NCBI RefSeq assembly: GCF_003931915.1
Contig: NZ_RSAA01000035.1
Location: 1-64,000, forward strand
Length of the DNA stretch: 64,000 bases
Reading direction: 5' to 3'
Source: Saccharopolyspora rhizosphaerae
GTDB lineage: Bacteria > Actinomycetota > Actinomycetes > Mycobacteriales > Pseudonocardiaceae
Of the stretch, positions 10,033 through 60,100 are shown in pieces (positions within the stretch are counted from its first letter, which is position 1; each line of letters starts with the position of its first letter). The position numbers and the translations under genes are program-made. The notes beneath the pieces were generated by a model. It saw only the letters and a program-made list of their open reading frames with translations. It was not told the DNA's origin and ran no database searches.

Positions 10033-10080
10033 GGGAACCTTCCTGCCACCGCTGGCGGGGTGAGTGGCAGGAAGGTTCCC
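10033..10080. repeat. GGGAACC-family inverted repeat (paired copy)
   Basis: GGGAACCTTCCTGCCAC at 10033-10049 is followed after 14 bases by its exact reverse complement at 10064-10080. It lies between two same-direction genes, right after the rhodanese stop. There is no T-run after either arm. Confidence 0.9.
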
Positions 10081-10163
10081 CCGCTCGCTCCACGGCCTCG
10101 CTGCCAGCGAGCCGGAGCAAAGCGGCTCCTCGGTGCGTGGAGGTCCCGTAGGCTCCGGGCCTT

Positions 10164-11321
10164 GTGCGAGCGCAGAGTTTTGTGACACGACCTTGGGTGC
10201 TGGTCGCCGCGGCGGGCGCTGTCGTCTTGGCGGCGGTAGAGGTGTTCCTCGGGACCGGTCCCTCCGGTGTCGCCACCGGGTGGGCCGGTGGTGTGGTGGG
10301 AGCGCTCCTGCTGCCGGTGGCCACGCAGGTCGGGTTGCTGCTGGGGTCGGTGCTCTTCGGACTGCGCGTGCGCCAGGTGGTGTTCGGCGCGATGCGGGAG
10401 ATCGCCTCGTTCAGGTGCGGTGGCGTGACCTTCACCTTCCGGGCGTTGCCGGTGACGCTGCGGGCGCAGATCGGGCCGTGGCGTTCACCGGTGATCCTGC
10501 GCTGCTGGCTGGCCGGGCTGGTCTCGGCGGTGGTGGGTTTTGCGGCAGTGGCCGCGGCCTGGTGGTGGGTCCCGGGGGCGTTCGGACGTGGGCTGTCGCT
10601 CGCGATGAGCGCGTTCATGCTCGTCAAGCTGTGGCCCAAGCGCGTGCCGCTGACGACGTCGACCGGCTGGTTGTTGTTCTCGCTGCCCCGGATCGCGGAG
10701 CCCGAGCGCTCGGACTTCCTCGCCGCGCCTCTGGCGGCTCGCGCTTACGAGGCGCTGCGCAGCGGTGATCTCGACACCGCGCAGCAGCACGCCGACGAAC
10801 TCGGCGACCGCTTCCCCGGCATCAACGCCACGGTGTCCTGCCAGATCGCGGTGATGGAATCGCGCGGTCTCTACGCGCCGGGCGTGCTCACGTTGCTGAA
10901 GTTCTTGTCCGACAACGACGTCCCGCCGCGCAAGATGGCCTACTTGCTGGCGGGCCTGGCCGGACTGGGGTTCAAGGCCGTCGAGTCCGGTCAGATGCCG
11001 GCCGAGAGCCTACTGCCGACGGCGAAGAAGGCGCTGCAGGACGCCGTGTCGCTCGGCTACCCGGAGTTCGAGCTCAGCGGCACCAGCGGACTGCTGGCCC
11101 TCATCGAGGGGGACGCGGCGGAGGCGGTGAAGCTGGCGACAACCGGGGCCGAGTACAACCACTCTCCGCTGTCCCGCGCGGACGACTTCACGACGGTGGC
11201 GCGCGCCCACATGGCGTTGCACGACAACGCCGCGGCCCGCACCGCCTTGGCCCGCGCGGAGGAACTCGCCCCGTGGTCGCCGCGCGTCACCGAAACCCGC
11301 CAGCGCCTCTCGGTTACCTGA
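10164..11321 (+). CDS. Membrane-anchored protein with TPR-like cytoplasmic region (unknown function)
   Basis: A 385-residue protein that I do not recognise by name. The first 60 residues contain two hydrophobic segments (WVLVAAAGAVVLAAVEVFL and VVGALLLPVATQVGLLL). Two more follow near 115-150. From about residue 195 the sequence is helical and Ala/Leu-rich with TPR-like helix pairs (AARAYEALRSGDLDTAQQHA; ARTALARAEELAPWSP at the end). This suggests a scaffold facing the cytoplasm. It starts with GTG. Its stop is one base before a perfect 48-base palindrome of the GGGAACC family. Confidence 0.7.
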   Translation: MRAQSFVTRPWVLVAAAGAVVLAAVEVFLGTGPSGVATGWAGGVVGALLLPVATQVGLLLGSVLFGLRVRQVVFGAMREIASFRCGGVTFTFRALPVTLRAQIGPWRSPVILRCWLAGLVSAVVGFAAVAAAWWWVPGAFGRGLSLAMSAFMLVKLWPKRVPLTTSTGWLLFSLPRIAEPERSDFLAAPLAARAYEALRSGDLDTAQQHADELGDRFPGINATVSCQIAVMESRGLYAPGVLTLLKFLSDNDVPPRKMAYLLAGLAGLGFKAVESGQMPAESLLPTAKKALQDAVSLGYPEFELSGTSGLLALIEGDAAEAVKLATTGAEYNHSPLSRADDFTTVARAHMALHDNAAARTALARAEELAPWSPRVTETRQRLSVT

Positions 11322-11369
11322 AGCACGGGAACCTTCCTGCTGCTCGAGCAGCAGGAAGGTTCCCGTGCT
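11322..11369. repeat. GGGAACC-family perfect palindrome
   Basis: The 48 bases are a perfect palindrome centred on CTCGAG, with AGCACGGGAACCTTCCTG on the left and its complement on the right, no loop. It begins one base after the stop of the preceding gene and separates two convergent genes. No T-run follows on either strand. Confidence 0.92.
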
Positions 11370-11414
11370 CCTGCCGGACTGTCGCGCTAGGAGCGCTCAG
11401 CTCCCGAGCGGCGA

Positions 11415-12359
11415 TCAGTCCATCGTGAGGACGAGCTTGCCCTTGGTGCGGCCGGTCTCGCCGTGCTCGTGCGCCTTGGCCGCGTCGGCCAGCGGGAACG
11501 TGGCGGCGATCTCGGCGCGCAGCTCGCCGGCCTCGACGAGTTCGCGGATGGCCCGCATCCCGGCCTGGTCGGCTTCGACGAGCATCACCTCGGCGCGGAC
11601 TCCGAGGTCCTCGGCTTCGGCGACGAGCTCCTCGCGGTCGTAGGGCAGGATCGACACGAGAACGCCGCCCTTGCGCAGCACCTGCAGCGAGCGGCTGCGG
11701 TAATCGGCGGCGATGGTGTCGAGGACCACGTCGACGTCGCTGACCGCCTCGGTGAAGTCGACGGCGGTGTAGTCGATGAGCTCGTCAACACCGAGCTCGG
11801 TCAGGAACTCGTGCTTGCTCCCGCTCGCGGTCCCGATGACGTAGGCACCCTTGGCCTTGGCGATCTGCACCGCGAGGTGCCCGACGCCGCCGGCGGCCGC
11901 GTGGATCAGGACCCGCTGACCGGACTGCAGGTTCGCGGTGTCGTTGAGCGCCTGCCACGCGGTGAGCGCGGCGAGCGGGACCGCGCCGGCCTGCACGTGG
12001 TCCACGTTCTGCGGTTTCGGGGCGAAAGCCCTGGTCGGGCCGGTCACGTACTCGGCGTGCGAGCCGACGCCGAAGGGGTAGGGCAGCATGCCGAAGACCT
12101 CGTCACCCGGTTTGTGCAAGGTGACGCCGGTGCCGATGGCCTCGACCACGCCGGAGACGTCCCAGCCGAGGATGCGCGGCGGCTCGCCGAGGAACCCCGG
12201 TCCGGCGCGGTGCTTCCAGTCGGTGGGGTTGACACCGGCCGCGCGCACGCGGATCAGCACCTCGCTGGGTCCCGGTTCGGGCTTGTCCAGCCGAGCCTCG
12301 CGCAGCACCTCCGGGCCGCCGTAACCGTCCTGGGTGATGGCGCGCATGGTTTCACTCAT
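11415..12359 (-). CDS. NADPH:quinone oxidoreductase-like MDR-family enzyme
   Basis: A 314-residue medium-chain dehydrogenase/reductase of the quinone-reductase branch. It has the GroES-like fold at the N-terminus (ETMRAITQDGYGG, VRAAGVNPTDWKHRAG) and a Rossmann nucleotide site HAAAGGVGHLAVQIAKAKG near residues 150-170. Structural zinc cysteines of classical alcohol dehydrogenases are absent, which fits zinc-independent quinone reductases. I chose ATG at 12359; a GTG three codons earlier is also possible. It is convergent with the TPR-like gene. The substrate is unknown. Confidence 0.85.
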   Translation of the reverse strand: MSETMRAITQDGYGGPEVLREARLDKPEPGPSEVLIRVRAAGVNPTDWKHRAGPGFLGEPPRILGWDVSGVVEAIGTGVTLHKPGDEVFGMLPYPFGVGSHAEYVTGPTRAFAPKPQNVDHVQAGAVPLAALTAWQALNDTANLQSGQRVLIHAAAGGVGHLAVQIAKAKGAYVIGTASGSKHEFLTELGVDELIDYTAVDFTEAVSDVDVVLDTIAADYRSRSLQVLRKGGVLVSILPYDREELVAEAEDLGVRAEVMLVEADQAGMRAIRELVEAGELRAEIAATFPLADAAKAHEHGETGRTKGKLVLTMD

Positions 12360-12420
12360 GTCCCCCACCCTGCCTCACTGAATGCCGAGGGGCGCGCAGA
12401 CGACCCGGCGTTGTGGGCAG

Positions 12421-12460
12421 GGGAACCTTCCTTGTCACCGAAGTGCGCGGAAGGGTCCCT
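12421..12460. repeat. GGGAACC-family element, degenerate pair
   Basis: GGGAACCTTCCTTGTCACC at 12421 is followed by GGAAGGGTCCCT at 12449-12460, an imperfect reverse copy. It lies just downstream of the 3' end of the TetR gene. Confidence 0.7.
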
Positions 12461-12474
12461 CGTGCACTCGTGCG

Positions 12475-13047
12475 TCAGCGGGGGTCGGTGAGTCGGAGGA
12501 CGGCTTCGCGGGCGGCCGACTGCAGCTCGTCGACGGAGGTCTCGCCCAGCACCATGCGACGCAGCTGGGGAACGGCCAGCGGCCAGCTGATGGTGCCGAG
12601 GGCGAGCAGGACGATCATCCCCGGGTCGATGGCGTCGGTGACCTTGCCGGTGTGCTGGGCTCGGCGGACGGCGTCGACCTTGCCGCGGTAGTGCTCGGCG
12701 CGTTCGGATTCTGCGGCGACGCCGCTGTCACCGCGCTCGAGCGATTCCCACATGAGCAGCCGCAGCACGTGCGGGTGGGCCGCGTGGTAGGCGGCGAGGC
12801 GGTCCACGTAGCCGGGCAGGTCTTCGCCATCGATGGGAACCTCGGCGGCGAGTTCGGCCATGGCTTCTTCCAGCACGGCGGTGAACAGGGCGTCCTTGCT
12901 GCCGAAGTAGGCGTAGATCAGCTGCTTGTTGGCCTGGGCCTGCTTGGCGATGCGGTCGACGCGTGCGCCTGCGATGCCGTGCTCGGCGAACTCGGTCGTC
13001 GCGGCCTGGAAGATCCGGGCCTTGGTGGCTTCGGCGTTGCGGGGCAC
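12475..13047 (-). CDS. TetR-family transcriptional regulator
   Basis: A 190-residue TetR regulator. The N-terminal helix-turn-helix reads VPRNAEATKARIFQAA then GIAGARVDRIAKQAQ and IYAYFGSKDALF, the classical TetR signature. The C-terminal ligand domain resembles the TetR_C actinobacterial type. The GTG at 13047 gives the standard short N-terminus; upstream codons overlap the shared promoter region. It is divergent from an MFS exporter, and two AACCA-NN-TGGTT sites lie between them, so it probably represses both itself and the exporter until a ligand is bound. Confidence 0.9.
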   Translation of the reverse strand: MPRNAEATKARIFQAATTEFAEHGIAGARVDRIAKQAQANKQLIYAYFGSKDALFTAVLEEAMAELAAEVPIDGEDLPGYVDRLAAYHAAHPHVLRLLMWESLERGDSGVAAESERAEHYRGKVDAVRRAQHTGKVTDAIDPGMIVLLALGTISWPLAVPQLRRMVLGETSVDELQSAAREAVLRLTDPR

Positions 13048-13070
13048 AGCCGCACTGTACCGCCGGAACC

Positions 13071-13082
13071 AACCACCTGGTT
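13071..13082. promoter_or_regulatory. Probable TetR operator 1
   Basis: AACCACCTGGTT, arms AACCA and TGGTT around two bases. The same AACCA-NN-TGGTT arrangement recurs 46 bases away (start to start). It abuts TTGACA (13081-13086), a good -35 for the MFS gene. Confidence 0.7.
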
Positions 13083-13116
13083 GACACCGATCGGGGGACG
13101 GCAGCACACTACAACC

Positions 13117-13128
13117 AACCAGTTGGTT
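13117..13128. promoter_or_regulatory. Probable TetR operator 2
   Basis: AACCAGTTGGTT, the second copy of the AACCA-NN-TGGTT palindrome in the 106-base gap between the tetR and MFS starts. It sits just downstream of the likely -10 region of the exporter promoter, where a repressor would block transcription. Confidence 0.7.
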
Positions 13129-13153
13129 ACCTTGTTGTCCCTGCGGAGACCCC

Positions 13154-14326
13154 ATGAGCGCCGTCGCACCCGCCACCGGCCGCCTCAGCCGCGGACTGCT
13201 GTTCGCCGCTGCGCTGTGCGCCGGCACCACCGTCGCCAACATCTACCTCGCCCAGCCGATCATCGGTCCCGTCGCCGAGACCTTCGGCGTCTCGGCGCAG
13301 ACCGCGGGCATCGTGGTGACCACGGCGATGCTCGGCTACGCCGCGGGTCTGCTGTTCGTCATCCCGCTCGGCGACAGCCTGGACCGGCGCAAGGTCGTCG
13401 GCGTGCTGAGCGTCCTCACCGCCGCGCTGCTGGTGGGTAGTTCCCTCGCACCGTCGTTGCCGGTGCTCGCGGTGCTGGGCGGGCTTGCCGCGGTGACGAC
13501 CGTCGTCCCGCAGGTCCTGATCCCGCTGGTCGTGCAGCTCGCCGATCCCGCCCAGCGCGGGACGGCCATGTCCTGGGTGCAGGCCGGTCTCATCACCGGG
13601 ATCATGGGCGCCCGGGTCCTCTCCGGCCAGCTCGCCGGACTCCTCGGGTGGCGCTCGGTCTTCGCCGTCGCGGCCGCGCTGACGCTCGTCGTCGGCCTGT
13701 GGACGGTCCGCGCACTGCCCAGCGACGGACGACGCGACTCGGTGGACTACTGGTCGCTGCTGCGCTCGCTGCCCGGCTACCTGCGACGCGAACCTGGCCT
13801 CCGCCGAGCCTGCCTGCGCCAGGCGGGCAGCTTCGCCGCCTTCAACGCGGTCTGGACGACGCTCGCGCTCGTGCTCACCGCACCCCCGCACTCGTTCACC
13901 GTCGCCGAAGCCGGGCTCGTCGGCCTGCTCGGGCTGCTCAGCGCCGTGCTGGCGCCCACCGCCGGCAAGCTGGTCGACCGGCGCGGACCGCGCCTGGTAG
14001 GAGCGCTCGGCCTCACGGTGCTCGCCTTCGCCGCGCTCGTGCTCGTCCTGGGCACCACGTCGCTGACCGCGCTGCTCATCGGCACCGCAGCCGTGCCGAT
14101 CGGGTTGCAGGTCGGCCAGGCCGCCAACCAGAACGCCGCGCTGTCGGTGAACCCCGACGCAGGCGGCCGGTTGAACACGATCTTCATGCTCTCGACGTTC
14201 CTGGCCGGCGCGATCGGCTCAGCCGCGGGCAGCGTCGCCTACGGCGCCTACGGCTGGCCCGGCGTGTGCGCCACGGCCCTGGTCTTCCTCGGCCTCGGCG
14301 CCGTCGGCCTGCGCCGCGTGCGCTGA
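13154..14326 (+). CDS. MFS transporter (drug/solute efflux type)
   Basis: A 390-residue protein with about 12 hydrophobic segments and the loop motif GDSLDRRKVVG between segments 2 and 3, the MFS motif A. The N-terminal ANIYLAQPIIGPVAETF segment is typical of the small actinobacterial and proteobacterial MFS exporters related to YnfM/AraJ. ATG at 13154 has CGGAG six bases upstream. The divergent TetR and two operators point to inducible efflux; the substrate is unknown. Confidence 0.88.
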   Translation: MSAVAPATGRLSRGLLFAAALCAGTTVANIYLAQPIIGPVAETFGVSAQTAGIVVTTAMLGYAAGLLFVIPLGDSLDRRKVVGVLSVLTAALLVGSSLAPSLPVLAVLGGLAAVTTVVPQVLIPLVVQLADPAQRGTAMSWVQAGLITGIMGARVLSGQLAGLLGWRSVFAVAAALTLVVGLWTVRALPSDGRRDSVDYWSLLRSLPGYLRREPGLRRACLRQAGSFAAFNAVWTTLALVLTAPPHSFTVAEAGLVGLLGLLSAVLAPTAGKLVDRRGPRLVGALGLTVLAFAALVLVLGTTSLTALLIGTAAVPIGLQVGQAANQNAALSVNPDAGGRLNTIFMLSTFLAGAIGSAAGSVAYGAYGWPGVCATALVFLGLGAVGLRRVR

Positions 14327-14345
14327 TCCCGGCACACGGCTCTCC

Positions 14346-16895
14346 TCACCCGGCGAGGACGACCTTGCCCAGTTCCGCCGGTTCGGACAGCAGCGGGTGC
14401 CGCGGCAAGACCCGCACGTTGTAGCCCGCCGGACCGGCGTGCGGGAGCGTCACCGCAGCGGCGTAGCGGCCATCCCCGGTGGGTTTCATCGACGCGGTCA
14501 CGAAGTCGTGCAGGATGTCGTTGTCGTCCACTCGGCCCACCACGACCTCGACGTCCACATCGGACTGGTCAAGACCCGCCAGGTCCACCCGGGCCCGGAC
14601 GGTCACCTGCCCGCCCAGCAGCGGTGTCCCGTGGTCCACCGACATCTCGGTGTCGCCGACCCGCACCTGGTTCCACGCGGCCTGCAACCGCGTCCGGTAC
14701 TCGGCGATCTCCCGCGCCCCGCGGAAGTCGTCCCGCGACATCGCACGCATCGACTGCGCGGCAGGCGTGTAGTGGCCGTCGACGTACTCCCGGATCATCC
14801 GCGAGGCCTGCACCCGCGGGCCCAACGTGGCCAGGGTGTGCCGCACCATCGACATCCACTTGCCGGGCACGCCGTCGCTGTTGCGCTCGTAGTACATCGG
14901 CGCCACGTGCTCGGAGATCAGCTCGTACAGCGCCGCGGCCTCGAGGTCGTCGCGACGGTTCGGGTCGCTGACGCCCTCGGCGTTCGGGATCGCCCACCCG
15001 TTGCGGCCGTCGTACATCTCGTCCCACCAGCCGTCGCGCACCGACAGGTTCAGCACCCCGTTGAGCGCGGCCTTCATCCCCGACGTCCCACACGCCTCCA
15101 GCGGGCGCACCGGGTTGTTCAACCAGACGTCACACCCCGAGACCAGGTAGCGGGCCAGCGACATGTCGTAGTCCGGCAGGAACACGATGCGGTGCCGCAC
15201 GTCCGCGCTGTCGGCGAAGCGCACGATCCGCTGGATCATCGCCTTGCCGCCCTCGTCGGCCGGGTGGGACTTGCCGGCCACCACGACCTGCACCGGGCGC
15301 TCGGAGTCCAGCAGGAGTTCCCGCAACCGCTCGGTGTCGCGCAGCATCAACGTCGCCCGCTTGTAGGTGGGAACCCTGCGCGCGAAACCGATGGTGAGCA
15401 CATCGGGGTCGAAGACCGAGTCGCACCAGCCCAGTTCGAGGTCCGAGGCACCGCGCTGCTGCCACGCGATGCGCAGCCGCCGCCGCACCTCGTCGACCAG
15501 GCGCTGCCGCAGCGAGCACCGCAGTTCCCACAGCAGCGAGTCGCTGACCGGTTCCATCCCGCGCAACCCGGCACCGCTGTCCATCTCGGACTCGCCCAGC
15601 AGCTTGCCGAGCTCGCGCGCCGACCACGTCGGCCCGTGCACGCCGTTGGTGACCGACCGGATCGGGACCTCCTCGACCCCGAACCCCGGCCACAGGTTGC
15701 GGAACATCTTGCGGATCACTTCGCCGTGCAGCTCCGAGACCCCGTTGGCACGCTGCGCCAACCGCAACCCCATGTGCGCCATGTTGAACATGCCCGGGTT
15801 GTCCTCGGCACCCAAGGCCAGCACCCGGTTCGTCGGCACCCCGGGCAGCAGCGGTCGCTGCGCGCCGTCGTCGAAGTAGTGCCGCACCAGGTCCACCGGG
15901 AACCGGTCGATGCCCGCCGGGACCGGGGTGTGCGTGGTGAACACCGTCCCCGCCCGCACCGCTGCCGTCGCCTGGTCGAACTCCAGCCCCGGGTCGGTCT
16001 GCAGCTCCCGGATCCGCTCCAGCCCCAGGAAGCCCGCGTGGCCCTCGTTGGTGTGGAAGACCTCGGGCTGCGGGTGCCCGGTGAGCCGGCAGTACGCGCG
16101 CACCGCCCGGACCCCGCCGATGCCGGCGAGGATCTCCTGGCGGATCTTGTGCTCCGCGTCGCCGCCGTAGAGGCGGTCGGTGGTGCCGCGCAGGTCGTCG
16201 TCGTTGTCCGGCAGGTCGCTGTCGAGCAGCAGCAGCGGTACCCGTCCGACCTGCGCCTTCCACACCCGCGCGTGCAGCGTGCGACCCGCGGGCATCGCGA
16301 CGTCGACCACGACCGGTCGCCCGTCCTCGTCGGTGAGCACCTCCAGCGGCAGACCGCGGGGGTCGATCACCGGGTAGTGCTCGACCTGCCAGCCCTCCGA
16401 GGACAGCGCCTGGCGGAAGTAGCCCGACCGGTAGAGCAGGCCGACGCCGATCAAGGGAACTCCCAGGTCAGAAGCGGCCTTGAGGTGGTCGCCGGCGAGC
16501 ACACCGAGCCCGCCGGAGTAGTTCGGCAGCGCCTCGGTGAGCCCGAACTCCATCGAGAAGTAGGCGATCGAGGCGGGGAGCTCGGCACCTTCGTCCTGCC
16601 GCTGCTGGTACCAGCGCGGAACGGTGAGGTAGCGACGCAGGTCGTCCCCGACCGCGCGGGTGCGGGCGAGGAAGTCCTCGTCGTCCGCGAGCTGGCGCAA
16701 CCGCTCAGCGGGCACCTCGGCCAGCAGTCGCAGCGGGTCCGAGCCCACGGCCGCCCACACCTGCGGGTCGACAGCCGAGAACAGGTCCTGGGTGGGCGGG
16801 TGCCAGGCCCAGCGCAGGTTGGTCGCCAGCTTGCCCAGAGCGCTGAGCGGCTCGGGCAAGTGGGCCCGGACGGTGAAGCGGTGGACGGCTCTCAC
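14346..16895 (-). CDS. glgP: Alpha-glucan (glycogen/maltodextrin) phosphorylase
   Basis: An 849-residue phosphorylase of the short bacterial GlgP branch. The N-terminal domain with NLRWAWHPPTQDLF is typical. The pyridoxal-phosphate site EACGTSGMKAALNG carries the Schiff-base Lys608. It releases glucose-1-phosphate from alpha-1,4-glucans in the cytoplasm. I chose the GTG at 16895, where the family N-terminus (VRAVHRFTVRAHLPEPL) begins. The frame stays open for another 1500 bases upstream, but that part is antisense to a lipoprotein gene and is not coding. It is convergent with the MFS gene, 19 bases away, and divergent from a zinc-peptidase gene. Confidence 0.93.
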   Translation of the reverse strand: MRAVHRFTVRAHLPEPLSALGKLATNLRWAWHPPTQDLFSAVDPQVWAAVGSDPLRLLAEVPAERLRQLADDEDFLARTRAVGDDLRRYLTVPRWYQQRQDEGAELPASIAYFSMEFGLTEALPNYSGGLGVLAGDHLKAASDLGVPLIGVGLLYRSGYFRQALSSEGWQVEHYPVIDPRGLPLEVLTDEDGRPVVVDVAMPAGRTLHARVWKAQVGRVPLLLLDSDLPDNDDDLRGTTDRLYGGDAEHKIRQEILAGIGGVRAVRAYCRLTGHPQPEVFHTNEGHAGFLGLERIRELQTDPGLEFDQATAAVRAGTVFTTHTPVPAGIDRFPVDLVRHYFDDGAQRPLLPGVPTNRVLALGAEDNPGMFNMAHMGLRLAQRANGVSELHGEVIRKMFRNLWPGFGVEEVPIRSVTNGVHGPTWSARELGKLLGESEMDSGAGLRGMEPVSDSLLWELRCSLRQRLVDEVRRRLRIAWQQRGASDLELGWCDSVFDPDVLTIGFARRVPTYKRATLMLRDTERLRELLLDSERPVQVVVAGKSHPADEGGKAMIQRIVRFADSADVRHRIVFLPDYDMSLARYLVSGCDVWLNNPVRPLEACGTSGMKAALNGVLNLSVRDGWWDEMYDGRNGWAIPNAEGVSDPNRRDDLEAAALYELISEHVAPMYYERNSDGVPGKWMSMVRHTLATLGPRVQASRMIREYVDGHYTPAAQSMRAMSRDDFRGAREIAEYRTRLQAAWNQVRVGDTEMSVDHGTPLLGGQVTVRARVDLAGLDQSDVDVEVVVGRVDDNDILHDFVTASMKPTGDGRYAAAVTLPHAGPAGYNVRVLPRHPLLSEPAELGKVVLAG

Positions 16896-16967
16896 GGGAG
16901 CGGACCCTATCTCGCTGGACGCGCTCGCGTGCGATGCGCACCCGTCCCGGAGGCGGGTGGGAAGCTG

Positions 16968-18185: not shown

Positions 18186-18189
18186 GCAG

Positions 18190-18249
18190 GGGAACCTTCC
18201 TGCCACTCCACCCGACCGATGACCTGAGCATGGGAACCTTCCTCCCACC
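18190..18249 (+). repeat. GGGAACC-family, two direct half-sites
   Basis: GGGAACCTTCCTGCCAC at 18190 (preceded by GAGCAG) and GGGAACCTTCCTCCCACC at 18232 (preceded by GAGCAT) lie in the same orientation 42 bases apart, directly after the stop of peptidase copy 1. Direct rather than inverted arrangement is unusual for this family. Confidence 0.85.
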
Positions 18250-18379
18250 GGGGACCGGTCACCGCTTAGATCGGCCGTGGACAAGATCGGGAACCCGATA
18301 GGCTGCTGCGCGAAGACCGGGCCGCGCGACCGGCCCGGTGCGGAGGAGTTCGGACCGGTAGCGAGATGGGGCGCGTTCA

Positions 18380-19849: not shown

Positions 19850-19894
19850 TCGTTCCCGAGCAACCCGGCACCACCTCCGGCCGTCTTCCGGTGC

Positions 19895-20605: not shown

Positions 20606-20633
20606 TCCGCGAGCGCGCCGGTGGCGGGGGTGC

Positions 20634-20653
20634 AGGGGAACTTTCCGCTCACG
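20634..20653 (+). repeat. GGGAACC-family half-site, degenerate
   Basis: GGGGAACTTTCCGCTCACGC differs from the consensus at two core positions. It lies between two convergent 3' ends. Confidence 0.55.
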
Positions 20654-50681: not shown

Positions 50682-50942
50682 GGCCGGCCTCCCACCATCA
50701 CGACGTCCGTTGTCACGGTGCAGCCTACGAAATCAAGGTCGGGGAAAGAACCGTCCTGTTCCGCCCGACTCATGTGCTGGACACGCGTCGTTCAACGCTG
50801 GTCCACTTGGCAGCTGCGTTCCGACCTCACGGTATCCAGAAGATCTTGGCGCGGGGGCGGGAACCGGCCAACCGGTGCCGAAAAGCGAGCGGCGCCCGCA
50901 CCGTTGAGGCGCGGACGCCGCGCGAGGCGATGTCAGGTCACG

Positions 50943-51206: not shown

Positions 51207-51228
51207 GAGATGTCCTCCCAGTCCTGGC

Positions 51229-52905: not shown

Positions 52906-53209
52906 TGCCGCCCCACCTCCCACAGACCCAACAAAGTCAAACGAGAACCACCACACTCGCGATAGCGGTCGGACAGTACCGCACAAATGAGGCAGCAGTC
53001 GCAAGCCGATATCAATTCGTTGGAGAAGACACTAAATCGATCACGGAACTTCCGCCGAGTGGCGTCACGCAGGGGACTTTCCGGTCGTGCGCCTGTGCAC
53101 CCCGTGAGCGTCCGGCTCCATGCGAGTGATATACGCGTTGACCCGGCGGTTCGGACTCACCGTGACGGTATGGTCACTTTGTGCATTCGCCACATCGCGG
53201 GGAGGAATC
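52906..53209. other. Upstream region of the symporter and the 63-residue gene
   Basis: No gene or clear operator is visible. GGGGACTTTCCGGTCGTGC near 53072 is a weak relative of the GGGAACC family. ATATACGCGTTGACCC near 53128 may be part of a promoter for the small gene at 53210. Confidence 0.4.
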
Positions 53210-53401
53210 GTGAACGCGCGGATCGACCTGGCGATCAGCGCCGGACTCGCAGCAGATCCGACCGAAGATCACCGACCTCACCTCAGCACCGAACCGACCG
53301 GCCGTCGTCCCGAACGGCTGCTCCGCCGCCTCTCTGCCATGCTCGCGCCGCTGTCCACACCCCGCCTGGGGTGTGACTGCCCCAGCCGAGCGCACAGCTG
53401 A
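53210..53401 (+). CDS. Small protein (63 residues), unknown
   Basis: A GTG start with GGGGAGGAATC just before it, the strongest ribosome-binding site in this stretch. The product begins MNARIDLAISAGLAADPTE and ends with CDCPSRAHS, with a basic middle (GRRPERLLRRL). No signal peptide or membrane segment. It is divergent from the symporter gene and runs toward nucS. I do not recognise it; the good ribosome site and the terminal Cys pair are the reasons to list it. Confidence 0.5.
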   Translation: MNARIDLAISAGLAADPTEDHRPHLSTEPTGRRPERLLRRLSAMLAPLSTPRLGCDCPSRAHS

Positions 53402-53436
53402 CCGCTCCGCCCCGGCGCCCGTGCCGAGGTGAGCAT

Positions 53437-53453
53437 GGGAACCTCCCTGCCAC
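53437..53453 (+). repeat. GGGAACC-family half-site
   Basis: GGGAACCTCCCTGCCAC preceded by GAGCAT, with one core change (TTCC to TCCC). It lies 35 bases after the 63-residue gene stop. Confidence 0.75.
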
Positions 53454-53687
53454 TCCCGCGTCGTCCGCGAGATCGGCTCACCGCGGGGACGTGAACTCGG
53501 GCCGGAGCGCGCGGCCGCCCGTTTCGACCTGGCTGGACACGCGGAATCGGTGCGATGCGTCGAACATCGTCCGGCCGGCCGCGGCTTCGGGGTGAACGAG
53601 GAAATCGCGCGCGGAACGAGATGAGCATTCCTCGATCCGCGCCAGAACGGGTCGAGCAGCGACCCGTTCGCTCGCCGACGCGAGGAA

Positions 53688-53705
53688 GGGAACCTTCCTG
53701 TCACC
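53688..53705 (+). repeat. GGGAACC-family half-site
   Basis: GGGAACCTTCCTGTCACC lies about 40 bases from the 3' end of nucS (which is on the other strand). Confidence 0.85.
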
Positions 53706-53745
53706 GCTGCCGGGAGGAACCCCGACCGCGCCACGGCGACCGGTC

Positions 53746-54405
53746 TCAGAACAGGCGGTACTCGTCGGGTTCGATGCCGCGCAGCTTGTCGTAGTCCAGG
53801 ACCACGCAGCGGATCCCGCGGTCCTCGGCCAGCGTCCGCGCCTGCGGCTTGATCTGCTGCGCGGCGAACACGCCGGTCACCGGGGCCAGCAGCGGGTCGC
53901 GGTTAAGCAGTTCCAGGTAGCGGGTCAACTGCTCGACACCGTCGATCTCGCCGCGCCGCTTGATCTCCACCGCGACGCTGTGGCCCTCGTCGTCCCGGCA
54001 CATCAGGTCGACCGGGCCGATCGCGGTCGGGTACTCGCGCCGCACCAGCGACCACCCCTCACCCAGGGTCGTCACGTGCTCGGCCAGCAGCTCCTGGAGG
54101 TGCGACTCCACGCCGTCCTTCACCAGGCCCGGCTCGGCACCCAGCTCGTGCTTGGAGTCGTGCAGCACCTCGTCGACCGTGATCACGAGCTTCTCGCCCG
54201 CCTTGTTCTGCACGGTCCAGACGTCCGGGTCCTCGATGAGCCAGCACGGCGGGCTCATCCAGTTCAACGGCTTGTAAGCGCGGTCGTCGGAGTGCACCGA
54301 CACCGAACCGTCGGCCTTCACCAGCAGCAGTCGCTGCGCCATCGGCAGGTGCGCGGTGAGACGACCGACGTAGTCCACCTGGCAGCGGGCAATCACAAGT
54401 CGCAC
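53746..54405 (-). CDS. nucS: Mismatch-specific endonuclease NucS/EndoMS
   Basis: A 219-residue protein close to mycobacterial Nuc[21 protein letters not shown] and [13 protein letters not shown] form the N-terminal DNA-binding region. [12 protein letters not shown] and [17 protein letters not shown] carry the nuclease D, E and K residues. The C-terminal EYRLF is a clamp-binding tail. In actinobacteria lacking MutS/MutL, NucS cuts mismatched DNA. The GTG start at 54405 gives the family N-terminus. It is divergent from the permease gene. Confidence 0.95.
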
Positions 54406-54525
54406 CCGGCACAGAGTACGGGCGTCGTGATCGATGTCGAGCACCCCCACGGGTGATCAACACGACCGACCGGGCCCGGACCCGCGCCACGAGGCCTCCC
54501 ACCACCGGAGTTACCGTTACCGCTC

Positions 54526-55935
54526 GTGTCTTTCGCCCGCAGTCTGCTCCGCGTGAAACCGGCCGAACAGCTCTCCGCCGATGGCTCCCACAGCGAGCTG
54601 AACCGCACCCTCGGCCTGGTGCCGCTGGTGGCACTGTCGGTGGGCGCGACGCTGGGGACCGGCATCTTCGTGGTGCTGGCCGAAGCCGCACCGGCCGCCG
54701 GCCCGGCCGTGGTGGTCTCCTTCGTGCTCGCCGGACTGGCCGCGCTGTGCTCGGCCTTGTCCTACGCCGAACTCGCGGGCAGCGTCCCGGTCTCCGGCTC
54801 CGCCTACTCCTACACCTACGCGACGCTCGGCGAGATCATCGCCTGGATCTGCGGCTGGTGCCTGCTGCTGGAGTACGGGGTGTCGGTGGCTGCTGTGGCG
54901 GTCGGCTGGGGCGGCTACCTCAACGAGTTCCTGCAGGGCACCATCGGTGTGACCATCCCGGATGCGCTCGCCGCGCCGCCCGGTGAAGGCGGCATCGTCA
55001 ACGTGCCCGCGGCGATCGTCGTGCTGATGGCCACCGGCGTGCTGCTGCTCGGCGTGCGCGAGAGCGCGTGGGCCACCACGGTCACCACCGTCCTCAAGAT
55101 CGCGGTTCTGGTGTTCTTCGTGGCGGTGGCCTTCACCGCTTTCAACTCTGGGAACCTGGTTCCCTTCGCGCCGGCCGGGATCGCGGGCATCTCCGTGGGC
55201 GCCTCCGCGGTGTTCTTCTCCTTCATCGGCTTCGACGCCGCCTCCACCGCAGGGGAAGAGGCGCGCAACCCGAAGCGCGACCTGCCGCGGGCCATCATCC
55301 TGTCGCTGATCATCGTCACCGCGATCTACGTGCTCGTGGCCTTCGCCGCCGTCGCGGCCGTAGGCAGCGGGGTGCTGGGCGAATCCGACGCCTCGCTGGC
55401 CGCAGCCCTGCGCCTGGTCACCGGCCAGAGCTGGCCGGCGGTCGTGCTCGCCCTGGGCGCGGTCATCGCCATCGCCTCGGTGGTGCTCACCGTCCTGTAC
55501 GGGCAGACGCGGATCCTGGTGTCGATGTCGCGCGACGGCCTCGTCCCGCCGATGCTGTCGCAGGTCAACCGCCGCTCGGTGCCCGCCCGCAACACGCTGC
55601 TGGTGGGCGTCCTCGTCGCACTGCTCGCCTCCGTGGTGCCGCTCAACCAGCTCGCCGAAGCCACCAGCATCGGCACGCTCGTCGCGTTCGGCCTGGTCAA
55701 CATCGGTGTGGTGGTGCTGCGGCGCACCAAGCCCGAACTGCAGCGCAGCTTCCGCACCCCGTTCATGCCGTTCGTGCCGCTGCTCGGCCTGGCGCTGTGC
55801 GCGTACCTGATCACCGGCCTCGACGCGGTCACCTGGATGACCTTCGCGATCTGGACCGCGATCGGGCTGGGCGTCTACTTCGGCTACGGCCGCCGCAAGT
55901 CGCGGCTCAACCAGCTCGAGCACGCGGTCCGCTGA
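54526..55935 (+). CDS. APC-family amino acid permease (cationic amino acid type)
   Basis: A 469-residue permease with 12 or more membrane segments. LSVGATLGTGIFVVLAEAA is the APC helix-1 motif (G-x-G-I-F), and FFSFIGFDAASTAGEEA and NPKRDLPRAI are the helix 6-7 motifs. It resembles YfnA/CAT transporters. GTG start at 54526. It is divergent from nucS with about 120 bases between. The substrate is an amino acid, likely uncharged or basic. Confidence 0.92.
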   Translation: MSFARSLLRVKPAEQLSADGSHSELNRTLGLVPLVALSVGATLGTGIFVVLAEAAPAAGPAVVVSFVLAGLAALCSALSYAELAGSVPVSGSAYSYTYATLGEIIAWICGWCLLLEYGVSVAAVAVGWGGYLNEFLQGTIGVTIPDALAAPPGEGGIVNVPAAIVVLMATGVLLLGVRESAWATTVTTVLKIAVLVFFVAVAFTAFNSGNLVPFAPAGIAGISVGASAVFFSFIGFDAASTAGEEARNPKRDLPRAIILSLIIVTAIYVLVAFAAVAAVGSGVLGESDASLAAALRLVTGQSWPAVVLALGAVIAIASVVLTVLYGQTRILVSMSRDGLVPPMLSQVNRRSVPARNTLLVGVLVALLASVVPLNQLAEATSIGTLVAFGLVNIGVVVLRRTKPELQRSFRTPFMPFVPLLGLALCAYLITGLDAVTWMTFAIWTAIGLGVYFGYGRRKSRLNQLEHAVR

Positions 55936-55998
55936 GGGAACCTCCCAGTCCCCCAACGACCTCGGCTCACGCCGGGCGGCGGTGACAGGAAGGTTCCC
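55936..55998. repeat. GGGAACC-family, degenerate plus reverse half-site
   Basis: GGGAACCTCCCAGTCCCCC (55936, with core change) and GGTGACAGGAAGGTTCCC (55981-55998) lie in opposite orientation 27 bases apart, directly after the permease stop. Confidence 0.8.
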
Positions 55999-56029
55999 AT
56001 GCGCGCGCCCGCCACCGGTGAACGGCACG

Positions 56030-56575
56030 ATGGAACGCATGGAGCAGACCAGCAGCCGCGAGGTGTACGCGAACCCGTGGATGAGCGTGCGGGAAGACGG
56101 CGTTCGGCGTGACGACGGGTCCACCGGGATCTACGGCGTCATCGACAAGCCCGACTACGCGCTGGTCATCCCGCTCGACGGTGATCACGTGCACCTCGTC
56201 GAGCAGTTCCGCTACCCGCTGGGCCTGCGGCGCTGGGAGTTCCCGCAGGGCACGGCTCCCGACCGCGCCGACCTCGAACCCGGCGAACTCGCCGCGCGCG
56301 AGCTCCGCGAGGAGACCGGACTGCGCGCGGAGAGCATGGTGGACCTGGGCGTGCTCGACGTCGCGCCCGGCATGTCCAGCCAGCGCGGCAGGGTCTTCCT
56401 GGCCACCGGGCTCACCGAAGGCGCGCACGAACGCGAGCACGAGGAGCAGGACATGCGCACGGCGTGGTTCAGCCGCGCCGAGTTCGAGAAGATGATCGCC
56501 GCCGGTGAGGTCACCGACGCCCAGTCCATCGCCGCCTACGGCCTGCTCGTGCTGCGCGAACGCCGCGGCGCCTGA
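56030..56575 (+). CDS. NUDIX hydrolase (ADP-ribose pyrophosphatase-like)
   Basis: A 181-residue NUDIX enzyme. The box is ELAARELREETGL, with the leading glycine shifted by a short insertion (GTAPDRADLEPGE). LVEQFRYPLGLRRWEFPQG precedes it, as in ADP-ribose pyrophosphatases. It should hydrolyse a nucleoside diphosphate linked to another moiety. ATG at 56030 was chosen; ATG 56039 is nearly as good. Reading upstream runs into the GGGAACC repeat and yields a false extension GRFPCARPPPVNG. It is convergent with the ABM gene. Confidence 0.87.
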   Translation: MERMEQTSSREVYANPWMSVREDGVRRDDGSTGIYGVIDKPDYALVIPLDGDHVHLVEQFRYPLGLRRWEFPQGTAPDRADLEPGELAARELREETGLRAESMVDLGVLDVAPGMSSQRGRVFLATGLTEGAHEREHEEQDMRTAWFSRAEFEKMIAAGEVTDAQSIAAYGLLVLRERRGA

Positions 56576-56576
56576 G

Positions 56577-56900
56577 TCACAGGCCCACGCCGCCGAGGGT
56601 GTCCAGGTCGATCTGCTCCGGCGGTTCGGCGAGCATGCCCAGCACCTCGTTGAGGTCGATGTCGGGGCGCGTGGCCACGGTGGTCGCCAGCGCGGCGTCA
56701 GCGCTCTCGAAGTCCGTCCACGCCTCGACCACGCGCACCGTGTCGGGAGACCCGGCGTCCTTGCTGACCAGGTAGAGCGCGCAGCCGAGCGATCCGCGCA
56801 GGCCTTCGGCTACCTGCCTCATGATCGCGACGAGATCGTCTCCCCTGCCGGGCTTCGCGGTGAAGGTCATGATGCGGCCGACCCGCGCGGTGTCGCTCAT
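56577..56900 (-). CDS. Antibiotic biosynthesis monooxygenase (ABM) domain protein
   Basis: A 107-residue single ABM domain. MTFTAKPGRGDDLVAIM is the first strand and helix; VRVVEAWTDFESADAAL follows. The fold covers heme-degrading and quinol-type monooxygenases as well as stress proteins, so the function is open. ATG at 56900 has GGAGGGG six bases upstream. Its stop is one base after the NUDIX gene stop on the other strand. Confidence 0.82.
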   Translation of the reverse strand: MSDTARVGRIMTFTAKPGRGDDLVAIMRQVAEGLRGSLGCALYLVSKDAGSPDTVRVVEAWTDFESADAALATTVATRPDIDLNEVLGMLAEPPEQIDLDTLGGVGL

Positions 56901-57019
56901 CGGTTCCCCTCCGGATCCTCGCCTTCGGCCCGGAGACTGTAACCAGACGACGGGAACCGCTGATCATGATCCCCCGAGCAGCGCCGCGGCCGGGTCGCAC
57001 CCGGCTCAGTGCGGGGAGA

Positions 57020-58282
57020 TCAGTCCGCGACGCGCTCGATGTCAGCGCCGAGGCTGCGGAGGTTCTCCACGAAGTTCGGGTAGCCGCGGTCGATGTGGAA
57101 GACGTCCCACACCTCGGTGTCGCCGTCCGCGCACAGGCCCGCCAGCACCAAGCCGACGCCGGCGCGGATGTCGGTCGCCCAGACCGGCGCGCTGGAGAGC
57201 CGCTCCAGGCCCCGCACCACCGCGTGGTGGCCGTCGGTTCGCGCGTCGGCCCCCATCCGCACCAGTTCTTCGATGAAGCGGAACCGCGACTCGAACAGGT
57301 TCTCGGTGATCATCGAGGTGCCGTCGGCGACCGCGGACAAGGCCAGCGCCATCGGCTGCAGGTCGGTGGGGAACCCCGGGTAGGGCAGGGTCACGTAGTC
57401 CACGGCCTTCGGGCGCTGCGGCATGACCACCCGGAAGCACTCCTCACCGGTGGTCACCTCCGCGCCCGCGGTCCGCAGCTTCTCCAACATCAGGTTCGTG
57501 TGCCGGGGGTCGACGCCGTTCACCGTGATGTCGCCGCGCGTGGCAGCAGCCGCGAAGGCCCAGGTGGCGCCCACGATCCGGTCGCCGATCACGCGGTGTT
57601 CCACGGCCCGCAGCGAGGACACGCCGTGCACCGTCAGCGTGGAGGTGCCCGATCCTTCGATCTTGGCGCCCATCTGCTGGAGCATCACGCACAGGTCGAC
57701 GATCTCCGGCTCGCGCGCCGCGTTGTCGATCACCGTCGTGCCCTCGGCCAGCACCGCGGCCATCAGGATGTTCTCGGTGGCGCCGACGCTCGGGAAGTCC
57801 AGCCAGATCTGGGCACCCTGCAGGTTCTCGGCTTCGGCGACGACCGCGCCGTGCTCGATGTGGCTGGTCGCGCCCAGCTTCCGCAGACCGTTCTGGTGCA
57901 TGTCCAGCGGGCGGGACCCGATCGCGTCACCGCCGGGCAACGTCACCACGGCGCGGCGGCAGCGCGCCACCAGCGGCCCCAGCACGCACACCGACGCGCG
58001 GAGCTTGCCCATCGACGGCGAGATCGCCTCGTGGCTGACCTTGGAGGGCGTGGTGATGCGCACCGTGCCGCCGTCGATCGTGACCTCGCAGCCGAGGCTG
58101 CGCAGCACGTCGGCCATCAGCGGAACGTCCAGGATCTCAGGACAGTTCACGATCGTCGTGGTGCCCTCGGCCAGCAGTGCTGCCGCCATCAGCTTCAGCA
58201 CGCTGTTCTTCGCCCCGACCACGTCCACCGCGCCGACGAGGCGGGCTCCGCCGCGTACCCGGAAGTGCTCACTCACGAGCAT
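57020..58282 (-). CDS. murA: UDP-N-acetylglucosamine 1-carboxyvinyltransferase MurA (Cys-to-Asp)
   Basis: A 420-residue MurA. It transfers enolpyruvyl to UDP-GlcNAc, the first step of peptidoglycan precursor synthesis. [18 protein letters not shown] is the start block. The active-site loop reads [11 protein letters not shown], so the usual catalytic Cys is Asp119, as in Mycobacterium tuberculosis. Fosfomycin alkylates that Cys, so this enzyme should be intrinsically resistant. ATG at 58282. Upstream codons run into the repeat cluster and are false. It is divergent from PduO. Confidence 0.95.
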
Positions 58283-58334
58283 CGAGGTTACGGCCCCCGC
58301 CCAGCCCGTATCGGGTCGGGGCTCGAGCGAGTGG

Positions 58335-58431
58335 GGGAACCTTCCTCCCACCGGGGGTGCACACGGGGAACCATCCGCGCACCGCCGGTGCGGCAGCGAC
58401 GGAAGTGGCGCATGGGAAGCTTCCTGTCACC
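58335..58431 (+). repeat. GGGAACC-family cluster, three forward copies
   Basis: GGGAACCTTCCTCCCACC at 58335, GGGAACCATCCGCGC at 58376 and GGGAAGCTTCCTGTCACC at 58414 lie in the same orientation. They occupy the divergent murA/PduO gap, unlike most copies. The spacing is about 40 bases, similar to the pair at 18190/18232. Confidence 0.8.
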
Positions 58432-58451
58432 GGCGCGCCTAGGCTGTGGGC

Positions 58452-59024
58452 ATGGCAGTCCACCTGACGAAGATCTACACGCGGGCCGGCGACGCGGGCT
58501 CGACGCGGTTGTCCGACAACTCGACGGTGCACAAGACCGATCCGCGCCTGGTCGCCTACGCCGACGTGGACGAGACGAACTCCGTGCTGGGTGTCGCCCT
58601 GGCGACCGCGGAGCTCGCCGAGGACGTCGTCGGCGTGCTGCGCGACGTGCAGAACGACCTGTTCGACGTGGGCGCGGACCTGTCGACACCCGTCGTCGAC
58701 AACCCCGAGTACCCACCGCTGCGGGTCACCCAGGGCTACATCGACCGGCTCGAAAGCTGGTGCGACGAGTTCAACGCGCGACTGGGCAAGCTCGACTCGT
58801 TCATCCTGCCCGGCGGCACCCCGGGTGCTGCGCTGCTGCACCAGGCGCGCTGCGTGGCCCGCCGCGCGGAACGCTCGGCGTGGGCGCTGCAGGAGGCCGA
58901 CGCCGAGCGCACCTCGCTGCTGCCGGCGAAGTACCTCAACCGGCTCTCGGACCTGCTGTTCATCCTGGCCAGGGTGGCCAACCCGGACGGCGACGTGCTG
59001 TGGAAGCCGGGCGGGAACGCCTAG
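58452..59024 (+). CDS. Cob(I)alamin adenosyltransferase (PduO type)
   Basis: A 190-residue PduO-type adenosyltransferase. LTKIYTRAGDAGSTRL binds ATP and the helix with SRL-type residues includes RCVARRAERSAW. It adds the adenosyl group of ATP to cob(I)alamin to make coenzyme B12 for methylmalonyl-CoA mutase. ATG at 58452 was chosen; GTG 58446 is an alternative. Its stop overlaps the stop of the convergent acetyltransferase gene by four bases. The location next to murA and the ATP synthase genes is conserved in actinobacteria. Confidence 0.93.
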   Translation: MAVHLTKIYTRAGDAGSTRLSDNSTVHKTDPRLVAYADVDETNSVLGVALATAELAEDVVGVLRDVQNDLFDVGADLSTPVVDNPEYPPLRVTQGYIDRLESWCDEFNARLGKLDSFILPGGTPGAALLHQARCVARRAERSAWALQEADAERTSLLPAKYLNRLSDLLFILARVANPDGDVLWKPGGNA

Positions 59025-59491
59025 AGCTCCTTGCCGTAGCAGCGGCTGTCCGGATCGCAGCGGTAGACACCGAAGTTCTCGATCCGCTCGTAGCCCGACG
59101 AGGTGTAGAGCCCGATGGCTTCCGGCTGCTTGGTGCCGGTCTCCAGCACCAGGCGCTTGCGCACGGCCAGCGCGGCGGTGGACTCCAGTTCGGCGAGCAT
59201 CCGCCTGGACCATCCAGCGCCGCGCTGACCGGGGACGATGTACATGCGCTTGATCTCGGCGTCGCCGTCGCGGAAGCCCTCCTCGTCGGAGTCGTGGGCA
59301 CGCCAGCCGCCCGAGGCCACCGGCTCGTCGCCCAGGTAGCCGAGCAGGAACAGCCCCCGGGGCGCGGAGAACTCGGCCGGATCGACCGGAGTCACGTCGG
59401 CCTCGCCGTAGCGCACCACGTACTCCTGCTGCAGCTCCTCGATCAACCGTTGGGAGTCGGGGTGGTCGTAGCCGACGATCACGATGCGCAC
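59021..59491 (-). CDS. GNAT N-acetyltransferase, copy 1
   Basis: A 156-residue GNAT. AEIKRMYIVPGQRGAGWSRR is the acetyl-CoA site, with GQRGAGWS replacing the usual R/Q-x-x-G-x-G/A, and RLVLETGTKQPEAIGLYTSS follows. GTG at 59491 begins VRIVIVGYDHPD. Its paralogue starts 30 bases away and they are tandem on the same strand. The substrate is unknown. The altered pantothenate loop may reduce activity. Confidence 0.85.
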   Translation of the reverse strand: MRIVIVGYDHPDSQRLIEELQQEYVVRYGEADVTPVDPAEFSAPRGLFLLGYLGDEPVASGGWRAHDSDEEGFRDGDAEIKRMYIVPGQRGAGWSRRMLAELESTAALAVRKRLVLETGTKQPEAIGLYTSSGYERIENFGVYRCDPDSRCYGKEL

Positions 59492-59520
59492 ATCCGCAGC
59501 GTAATCGGCTCCCACCCAGG

Positions 59521-59991
59521 TCAGCGAAGCCTTTTCTCGAACCAGTGCGCGGCGTGGGGGTTGTCGTTGTAGGCGGGGATCTCCACGTAGCCCGCTTTGG
59601 CGTACAAGGCCTGCGCCTCGCCCAGCTCGGCCGCGGTGTCCAGGCGCACCCGCGCGAACCCCATCCGCCGCGCGTGGTCCTCCAGACTGGTCAACAGGGC
59701 CCGCCCGGCGCCCCGGCCGCGCAACTCCGGCGAGATCCACATCCGCTTGACCTCCGAGACGCCCGGCGACTCCGTGCGCAGGCCACCACAGCCCATCACC
59801 GCCCCGCCGACCCTCAGCAGCAGGAACACGCCCTTCGGCGGCGTGTACTCGTCGTCAGAAGGCGGAGCTCCCGCACCCGGATCGAATCCCTCCGGAAAGC
59901 GCTCGGCGAGCTCAGCGACGTACTGAGCGAGCGCCTGCTGGGCATCGCGGCTGCCGAAGGGCTCCGCCGCGATCGTGAAGTTCTCGGCCAT
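59521..59991 (-). CDS. GNAT N-acetyltransferase, copy 2
   Basis: A 156-residue GNAT, paralogous to the next gene downstream. SEVKRMWISPELRGRGAGRA is the canonical acetyl-CoA site, and VRLDTAAELGEAQALYAKAG follows. Both copies have the same length and block order, so they are duplicates. ATG at 59991; codons further upstream read into the repeat element (GTFLSLPPRLWQEG) and are false. The substrate is unknown. Confidence 0.87.
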   Translation of the reverse strand: MAENFTIAAEPFGSRDAQQALAQYVAELAERFPEGFDPGAGAPPSDDEYTPPKGVFLLLRVGGAVMGCGGLRTESPGVSEVKRMWISPELRGRGAGRALLTSLEDHARRMGFARVRLDTAAELGEAQALYAKAGYVEIPAYNDNPHAAHWFEKRLR

Positions 59992-60041
59992 GCGACACAG
60001 TCTCGGCCACCACGTCGACCGGCGAACCACCAGGCCCGGAC

Positions 60042-60100
60042 GAGCACGGGAACCTTCCTGCCACAGCCGGGGCGGGAGTGACAGGAAGGTTCCCGTGCTC
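60042..60100. repeat. GGGAACC-family inverted repeat (paired copy)
   Basis: GAGCACGGGAACCTTCCTG (60042-60060) and GTGACAGGAAGGTTCCC (60078-60094) followed by GTGCTC form a stem with a 12-base loop. It starts 16 bases beyond the intrinsic terminator of the DUF2550 gene, so it is not that terminator. Confidence 0.9.

Follow-up and report, generated by a model that had tools for sequence, protein, structure and literature searches.

A short palindromic repeat held in one chromosomal domain of Saccharopolyspora, with an AbiEi-like gene inside the domain as its probable partner

The question raised by the stretch of Saccharopolyspora rhizosphaerae DNA analysed here (the window: 64,000 nucleotides, positions C27:1-64000 of a contig of the organism's own genome) is why a short GGGAACC-centred repeat recurs in so many of its intergenic gaps, and to which protein or process it belongs. 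A first-pass annotation had named 21 places where the repeat occurs and had described it as a dispersed family similar to the repetitive extragenic palindromic (REP) sequences and bacterial interspersed mosaic elements (BIMEs). Our study indicates that the repeats occupy a single chromosomal domain and that they are probably the DNA sites that an AbiEi-like protein encoded inside it recognises. Each unit spans 27 bp and is an imperfect inverted repeat, roughly GTGACAGGAA-GGGAAC(C/T)-TTCCTGTCAC, with the best conservation in the right 17 bp; in Saccharopolyspora the left arm is degenerate, and in genome G013 it is clear, the unit there reading GTGACAG.AAGGGAAC.TTCCTGTCAC.

The abundance of the repeat in the window is far above expectation. 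The 11-mer core is found 30 times at up to one mismatch, against 0.79 copies expected and a maximum of 5 in 100 shuffles, and the 17-mer 29 times at up to three mismatches, against 0.30 expected and a maximum of 2 among the shuffles; 13 copies of the 17-mer are exact, 19 have at most one mismatch and 23 at most two. Every one of the 21 named places holds the core or a near variant, a few starts being shifted by 1-5 bases (11322 is 11327, 25812 is 25813 and 55981 is 55982), and the five inverted pairs described there are present, together with a sixth, degenerate one at 12421/12449. The claim that all copies lie outside coding regions stands for those with at most two mismatches, since none of these 23 falls inside a gene called by our purpose-written caller script, and loses its "all" at up to three mismatches, where two of 29 are genic.

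It is in the distribution over the chromosome that the earlier description had to be revised. The own genome (5.82 Mb) contains 27 exact copies of the 17-mer, 26 of them on C27, including 13 in the window, and no exact copy of the reversed 17-mer used as a control. At up to three mismatches there are 112 matches versus 7 for the control, and those listed fall mostly in C27:10-226 kb, the rest being found at the end of contig C4 (which adjoins C27 by synteny), at C4:319 kb, at C5:19-31 kb and at scattered weak places. All 57 exact copies in the single 5.78-Mb contig of G112 lie within 1,589,872-1,780,126 (~190 kb), all 50 in G280 inside 231 kb and all 41 in G101 inside 112 kb, and the domain measures 110-230 kb in the complete genomes examined. 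Because of this clustering in the own genome, G112, G280 and G101, the repeats form a domain-confined array and not a genome-wide REP family; the density of copies is far from random, and the genomes do not bear out a dispersed, REP/BIME-like spread. A polarity like that of FtsK-orienting polar sequences (KOPS) or Ter sites was also considered and rejected, the first matches having seemed strand-biased and the complete lists being mixed-strand. Reciprocal best hits give 205 pairs between the C27 and G112 regions, 127 between G101 and G112 and 113 between G013 and G112, with order largely kept, so the repeat domain is old and syntenic across three GTDB genera; to judge from gene order and length, it appears to contain the atp operon, rho and threonine genes. 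The domain lies ~1 Mb from dnaA, upstream in G112, G280 and G013 and on the opposite side in G101, having therefore moved together with its genes, and its location is ~0.25-0.38 of the half chromosome in these four genomes if a circular chromosome is assumed.

A candidate for the protein partner was obtained from the presence pattern of the genes in the domain. The genes that the caller found in the regions of G112 and G101 were screened for those missing from G079 and G256 yet present in repeat-bearing regions, and one core-domain gene has this pattern. It is encoded in seven of the eight repeat-bearing regions (C27, G112, G280, G063, G217, G101 and G013); the eighth, a 20-kb region of G241, stops short of the gene, which a whole-genome search places on the same contig. 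None of the six repeat-poor regions carries it (G079, G256 (60 kb), G233 (14 kb), G021, G085 and G072). Both C27 neighbours of the candidate are present in G256 with 3.7 kb of other DNA and no candidate between them, and in G079 one neighbour is present and the candidate absent. Within the clade, the whole-genome search found orthologues (at least 56% identity) in 24 of the 25 genomes that carry the repeat and in one of the four poor in it (G233; not G256, G046 or G079); outside the clade, among the matches listed from 297 genomes of the bacterial family down to a rank cut, below which weaker or truncated orthologues in other genera may lie, relatives have at most 49% identity. The sites lie around this gene, reaching from -91 to +111 kb in G112, from -109 to +122 kb in G280, from -98 to +118 kb in C27 (with one at +189 kb), from -49 to +72 kb in G101 and from -74 to +41 kb in G013, where copies also occur slightly further left; the G063 and G217 regions were fetched in part for this measurement. 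Sites with up to three mismatches also occur close to the gene itself: in G101, G013 and G217 they are found both upstream and downstream, no further than 200 bp away, in G112 they are at -437 and +152, G280 has them downstream, and C27 and G063 have them upstream.

The candidate belongs to a protein family with matches in 274 of the 297 genomes and no good match in Pfam or NCBIfam, and its paralogues tend to be accompanied by repeats of their own. The flanks of the 30 best-scoring loci were compared (8 orthologues and 22 paralogues, including paralogue L225 from the window's genus): left and right flanks match each other at 50 bits or more in 20 of the 22 paralogue loci versus 4 of 169 control windows, the match of L225 being ~770 bp away from the gene, and a k-mer flank test gave 19 of the 30 loci versus 5 of 331 control windows. 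At the 19 paralogue loci inspected by eye the repeats look palindromic, differ between most paralogues and agree across the two sides of one gene. The family genes at 1.67 and 6.48 Mb of G085 have near-identical palindromes on both sides.

The composition of the protein and the arrangement of the sites vary together. The AbiEi models of PADLOC match the N-terminal half of 20 of 21 aligned members (best E 8.9e-14), and the alignment of the nuclease-like C-terminal part reveals conserved PD...E.DS...H residues. The full-length form was found in 8 genomes, the G233 copy having its conserved DS residues changed, and an N-terminal-only form in 17, of which 13 match protein P0002 only over ~residues 1-220 and 4 end shortly after, as read from the frame. 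In a tree with midpoint rooting the orthologues form one clade (100/100), inside which the eight nuclease-less sequences included form another (100/100). The ratio of non-synonymous to synonymous substitution rates (dN/dS) among four nuclease-less forms is 0.07-0.23 by the Nei-Gojobori method, rough values given that dS exceeds 1, which show the nuclease-less form to be under purifying selection. Where the nuclease-like part is retained, head-to-head pairs at 19 bp prevail in G013 (41 of 44 copies) and in the 20 kb of G241 (13 of 13); G217 has 34 of 38 copies in head-to-head pairs, 29 of them at 19 bp, and in G101, which also has tandems at 29 bp, 41 of 94 are so paired. In four nuclease-less genomes such pairs take in only 15 of 54 copies in C27, 7 of 27 in G063, 16 of 86 in G112 and 19 of 85 in G280, at varied offsets, 10 of the 19 in G280 being at 19 bp. 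These counts show that pair geometry goes with the presence of the nuclease-like domain, and that the nuclease-less clade lacks strict 19-bp pairing.

Based on these observations, we propose that the AbiEi-like N-terminal part would bind the sites. Ancestrally, and in the paralogues too, the gene and two palindromes may have made up a REP-like unit, whose nuclease-like domain would handle head-to-head pairs and so enable them to spread. Along the lineage of Saccharopolyspora this spread would have been limited to ~100 kb of the gene, perhaps by a scarce, locally made protein acting nearby; one clade would have lost the nuclease-like domain and kept the DNA-binding part, and its sites, bound by the protein, would now mark a domain of the chromosome. 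The protein-binding role suggested in the first-pass annotation is plausible, with an AbiEi-like protein as the likely partner in place of a REP transposase. A wider proposal can be made tentatively, with somewhat less than even confidence: that the large actinobacterial AbiEi-like/nuclease-like family consists of repeat-and-gene systems, each with its own palindrome, parallel and unrelated to the REP doublets forming hairpins (REPINs) and their REP-associated tyrosine transposases (RAYTs), and that one Saccharopolyspora member was domesticated and organises or marks a ~200-kb domain, a macrodomain system derived from a selfish element.

Several results weigh against the proposed pairing of the repeat with the AbiEi-like protein. 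G091, a 20-contig draft, has 15 exact copies and no orthologue was found in it, and G233 has the orthologue yet only 2 copies by the loose pattern, with a variant repeat adjoining the gene. Of the seven larger regions, all but G013 also contain a gene at the domain edge that is absent from G079 and G256, a near-equal pattern; therefore, the candidate is the best and not the only one. Further edge genes also appeared absent from repeat-poor genomes and were set aside, the fetched stretches having no coverage there. Among the orthologues themselves, a two-flank match of at least 50 bits occurs at just three of eight loci (L204, L206 and L207), the sites at the failing ones being diverged between the two sides or one-sided, and within 260 bp of the G085 genes at 4.13 and 8.33 Mb a palindrome was seen to one side only. 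G085 (g16, 9.49 Mb) also carries a hairpin repeat, CGTGAAGGCCTCCTT, with 139 exact copies spread over the genome; the 100 copies listed of the 139 span 0.16-7.47 Mb, largely as inverted pairs 34 bp apart, and the repeat resembles one that, in the congeneric G124, flanks a family gene (L226). This is, by all appearances, a REPIN-like regime; family members can therefore spread, and the confinement, as far as seen, is special to the Saccharopolyspora group. Within that group, a few copies lie beyond the domain, in the own genome at C5:19085-30867 and C27:297183. With regard to the C-terminal part, REase_MTES_1575 matches 4 of the 21 members at E<=0.1 and below its cut-off (best E 2.3e-4; P0002 scores 15.9 bits against a nuclease profile cut-off of 38.2), a PDB profile search with this part gave no relative, and structure prediction of this part alone reached a predicted local distance difference test (pLDDT) score of 47; consequently, the nuclease is a reading and not a result.

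The alternative that survives best accepts the AbiEi-nuclease REP-like system as purely selfish and takes its local cluster for a vertically inherited ancestral burst with no host function. It fits the resemblance of the paralogues to gene-plus-palindrome units, the wide spread of the sister repeat in G085 and the fact that many site positions are common by descent. Of 21 genome pairs, 15 share sites in orthologous gaps above chance (p<0.05), with 19 gaps occupied in both genomes, 1 and 2 in a single one and 40 in neither for G112-G280 (p=9e-13), 9 both, 2 and 2 single and 25 neither for G112-G101 (p=1.6e-5), and 18 both, 4 and 4 single and 43 neither for C27-G112; sharing is non-significant in the other six pairs, five of which involve G217. 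Against a functionless burst, and in support of our proposal, the 17-bp core at shared gaps is 84-94% identical versus 26-53% for the flanks (five genome pairs; 19, 17, 8, 6 and 6 gaps), a comparison that favours the core by construction, since pairs were picked for the closest agreement of their flanks and neither copy had more than one mismatch, and in which the 53% value comes from a flank containing the partner arm of paired sites. The purifying selection on the nuclease-less protein and the lack of both sites and gene in three of the four repeat-poor relatives also speak against it, and we consider this alternative unlikely, although to be taken seriously.

A second alternative is that the sites serve some other protein, architectural or regulatory and not linked to them, the AbiEi-like gene being present by chance. 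The comparison was confined to the genes of the domain, which leaves room for this explanation, as do the sites without the gene in G091 and the almost equal pattern of the domain-edge gene. A Pfam scan for regulators covered 19 domain proteins besides the candidate (one cut by the end of the stretch) and 10 window frames, and none of the regulators seen (MarR, TetR, WhiB) has the candidate's presence pattern, the WhiB gene being at an edge beyond several of the fetched regions. An unlinked partner is hard to reconcile with the sites close to the gene, two-sided and at most 200 bp away in G101, G013 and G217 and at least one-sided in G112, G280, C27 and G063, with the repeats that the paralogues carry on both flanks, or with a pair geometry that tracks the nuclease-like domain. 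For these reasons, we judge it improbable.

More improbable still are RNA-level elements, that is, bidirectional terminators or stabilisers of mRNA 3' ends, a role close to the mRNA end protection mentioned in the first-pass annotation. The 26 exact copies in the C27 domain comprise 20 in co-directional gaps, with a median of 33.5 bp past the end of the upstream gene, 2 in convergent gaps, 3 in divergent ones and 1 within a called gene, so that the placement described as "mostly at 3' ends" is only partly borne out. In G112 the 57 exact copies divide into 32 in co-directional gaps, 17 in convergent gaps, 5 in divergent gaps and 3 inside called genes, and divergent gaps, which make up ~1/3 of its intergenic bases, are under-used. 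This placement near gene ends speaks for such elements, and paired sites could in addition form hairpins. However, 72-81% of the sites in the four nuclease-less Saccharopolyspora genomes are outside head-to-head pairs, and orientation relative to transcription in co-directional gaps is even (10 same and 10 opposite in C27; 15 with and 17 against in G112). None of the 13 terminator-like matches found in window 9500-29400 and 42000-61500 coincides with a site, and the gene adjoining the 60048 pair has a terminator-like match of its own at 60120-60143. An mRNA-end or intrinsic-terminator role is disfavoured because of this even orientation and the missing T-tract terminators on the sites of these two stretches. 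The rest of the genome manages without the sites, and an Rfam scan of the window gave no match.

An ordinary REPIN-RAYT family (such repeat systems are also named REPtrons) or BIME family shares with these repeats the intergenic palindromes, some of them paired, but it is scarcely credible here, as the repeat is not genome-wide and PF01797 (Y1_Tnp), found in 9 of the 22 genomes of the window's genus, is absent from the other 13, including the repeat-rich G112 (57 exact copies), G145 (46 exact copies) and G197; no RAYT/TnpA_REP partner is thus required, and the RAYT was rejected as far as members of PF01797 are concerned. The sole Y1_Tnp (RAYT-like) match of the own genome, at C5:20123-20470, adjoins the small, non-syntenic group of outlying copies on that contig. 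The narrow taxonomic range proposed for an intergenic, partly palindromic repeat family was confirmed. A scan with the inverted-pair pattern over a genome-contig collection, which misses single sites, possibly left out records close to the window's genome and was the sole search outside this bacterial family, returned 26 stretches, all titled Saccharopolyspora. The looser pattern GGGAACNTTCCNGNCAC has at least 18 copies in 20 of the 22 genomes of the window's GTDB genus, in 4 of the 6 of genus g46 and in the single genome of g14, and 0 to 2 copies in all remaining genomes of the 297. Judged by eye, G153 (g46) and Saccharopolyspora sp. NFXS83 have the same C-terminal sequence, and g46 is therefore at least partly Saccharopolyspora in NCBI's sense.

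The sites of the window, the extent of the domain and the candidate gene are collected in Table 1.

Table 1. Repeat sites of the window and related features (positions on C27; mismatches refer to the 17-mer)
Feature	Position	Strand	Remarks
Site domain, window part	10033..64000		Domain runs on along C27 to ~226 kb
Inverted pair	10033..10080	+/-	10033-10049 (+), 10064-10080 (-); exact
Inverted pair	11327..11364	+/-	11327-11343 (+), 11348-11364 (-); 2 mismatches each
Degenerate inverted pair	12421..12459	+/-	11-bp cores 12421 (+), 12449 (-)
Tandem pair	18190..18248	+	18190, 0 mismatches; 18232, 1 mismatch
Weak site	20636..20652	+	3 mismatches
Inverted pair	24185..24222	+/-	24185 (+), 1 mismatch; 24206 (-), 0 mismatches
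Site	25813..25829	+	2 mismatches, GGGACCCTCCC
Site	30939..30955	+	11-bp core exact; 3 mismatches across 17
Site	31782..31798	-	Exact
Site	35391..35407	-	2 mismatches; weak companion 35433, 3 mismatches
Site	43766..43782	+	1 mismatch
Site	44379..44395	+	Exact
Inverted pair	46592..46630		Both members exact
Site	49112..49128	+	Exact
Site	53437..53453	+	1 mismatch
Site	53688..53704	+	Exact
NucS endonuclease gene	53746-54396		Pfam
Site	55982..55998	-	Exact; weak companion 55936, 3 mismatches
Site cluster	58335..58430	+	58335 and 58414, 1 mismatch each; weak core 58366
Inverted pair	60048..60094		Both members exact
Candidate gene	107309-108043	+	Outside the window, inside the repeat domain

Some further observations were made on these and related regions. 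For the NucS gene of the window, comparison of G112 with the other regions gave 92-95% identity. Near the domain centre there is a variable insertion of ~12-16 kb (C27 ~87.5-99.6 kb, with matching places in G101 and G013), adjoining a conserved cation-efflux gene. In the 4-Mb genome G233 (L211, L174) the orthologue stands next to a variant palindrome, GGGAACTTTTC, which has a similar counterpart on a second contig. The repeats of G085 and G072 were considered as copies of the window motif and turned out to be different repeats; G072:C2:1180001-1300000 (L158-L163) contains the intergenic repeats CGACATCGGGTAG..., GAGGTTCCGCC and CGGCGGTGCCG, unrelated to the motif. A search of viral contigs gave no relative.

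With respect to the literature, the titles and the opening parts of the abstracts searched link no AbiEi-like or DUF559 protein to dispersed palindromes and do not mention this Saccharopolyspora repeat, and print may hold more; a term search in a study of transcription macro-regions in S. erythraea (PMC3610266) found neither "GGGAAC" nor "motif", and "palindrom" in a reference alone. Taken together, our results point to what would be an unrecognised family of repeat-and-protein systems. If this is true, REP-type palindromes arose with at least two unrelated cognate proteins, the system shows a possible path from a selfish repeat to an organiser of a chromosome domain, and a functional reading is offered for a family matching 274 of 297 genomes. 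It would also be tractable for two open questions: why bacterial repeats stay local or not, and what the origin of macrodomain-specific site arrays is.

Among known systems, ParB/parS and RacA/ram share the principle of clustered protein-bound sites that mark a chromosomal region, but those lie around the origin and have another site sequence and another protein. The MatP/matS system differs in that the present domain lies ~1 Mb from dnaA on one arm and not at the terminus, the site is longer than the 13-bp matS, the candidate gene is within the domain and the protein is a different one. The likeness to the Ter macrodomain (PMC3330122) is that tens of short sites are held in one chromosomal domain. 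As for the type IV toxin-antitoxin systems (PMC7319586, PMC3985639), the AbiEi antitoxin is reported to autoregulate by binding inverted repeats in its own promoter (PMC7319586), and our protein resembles it, by profile match, in its N-terminal part; here, by contrast, that part is fused to a nuclease-like part or stands alone, and the repeats are on both sides of the gene, with dozens more around it. Finally, the REPIN-RAYT systems (PMC3116915, PMC2817692) have in common with the present one the short, over-represented intergenic palindromes, often in head-to-head pairs, the cognate gene beside its own palindromes and the existence of several families with one repeat each, whereas here the gene is AbiEi-like with a PD-(D/E)XK-like part in place of a Y1 (HUH) transposase, the Saccharopolyspora repeat is kept in one domain, and the nuclease-like part has been lost in one clade.

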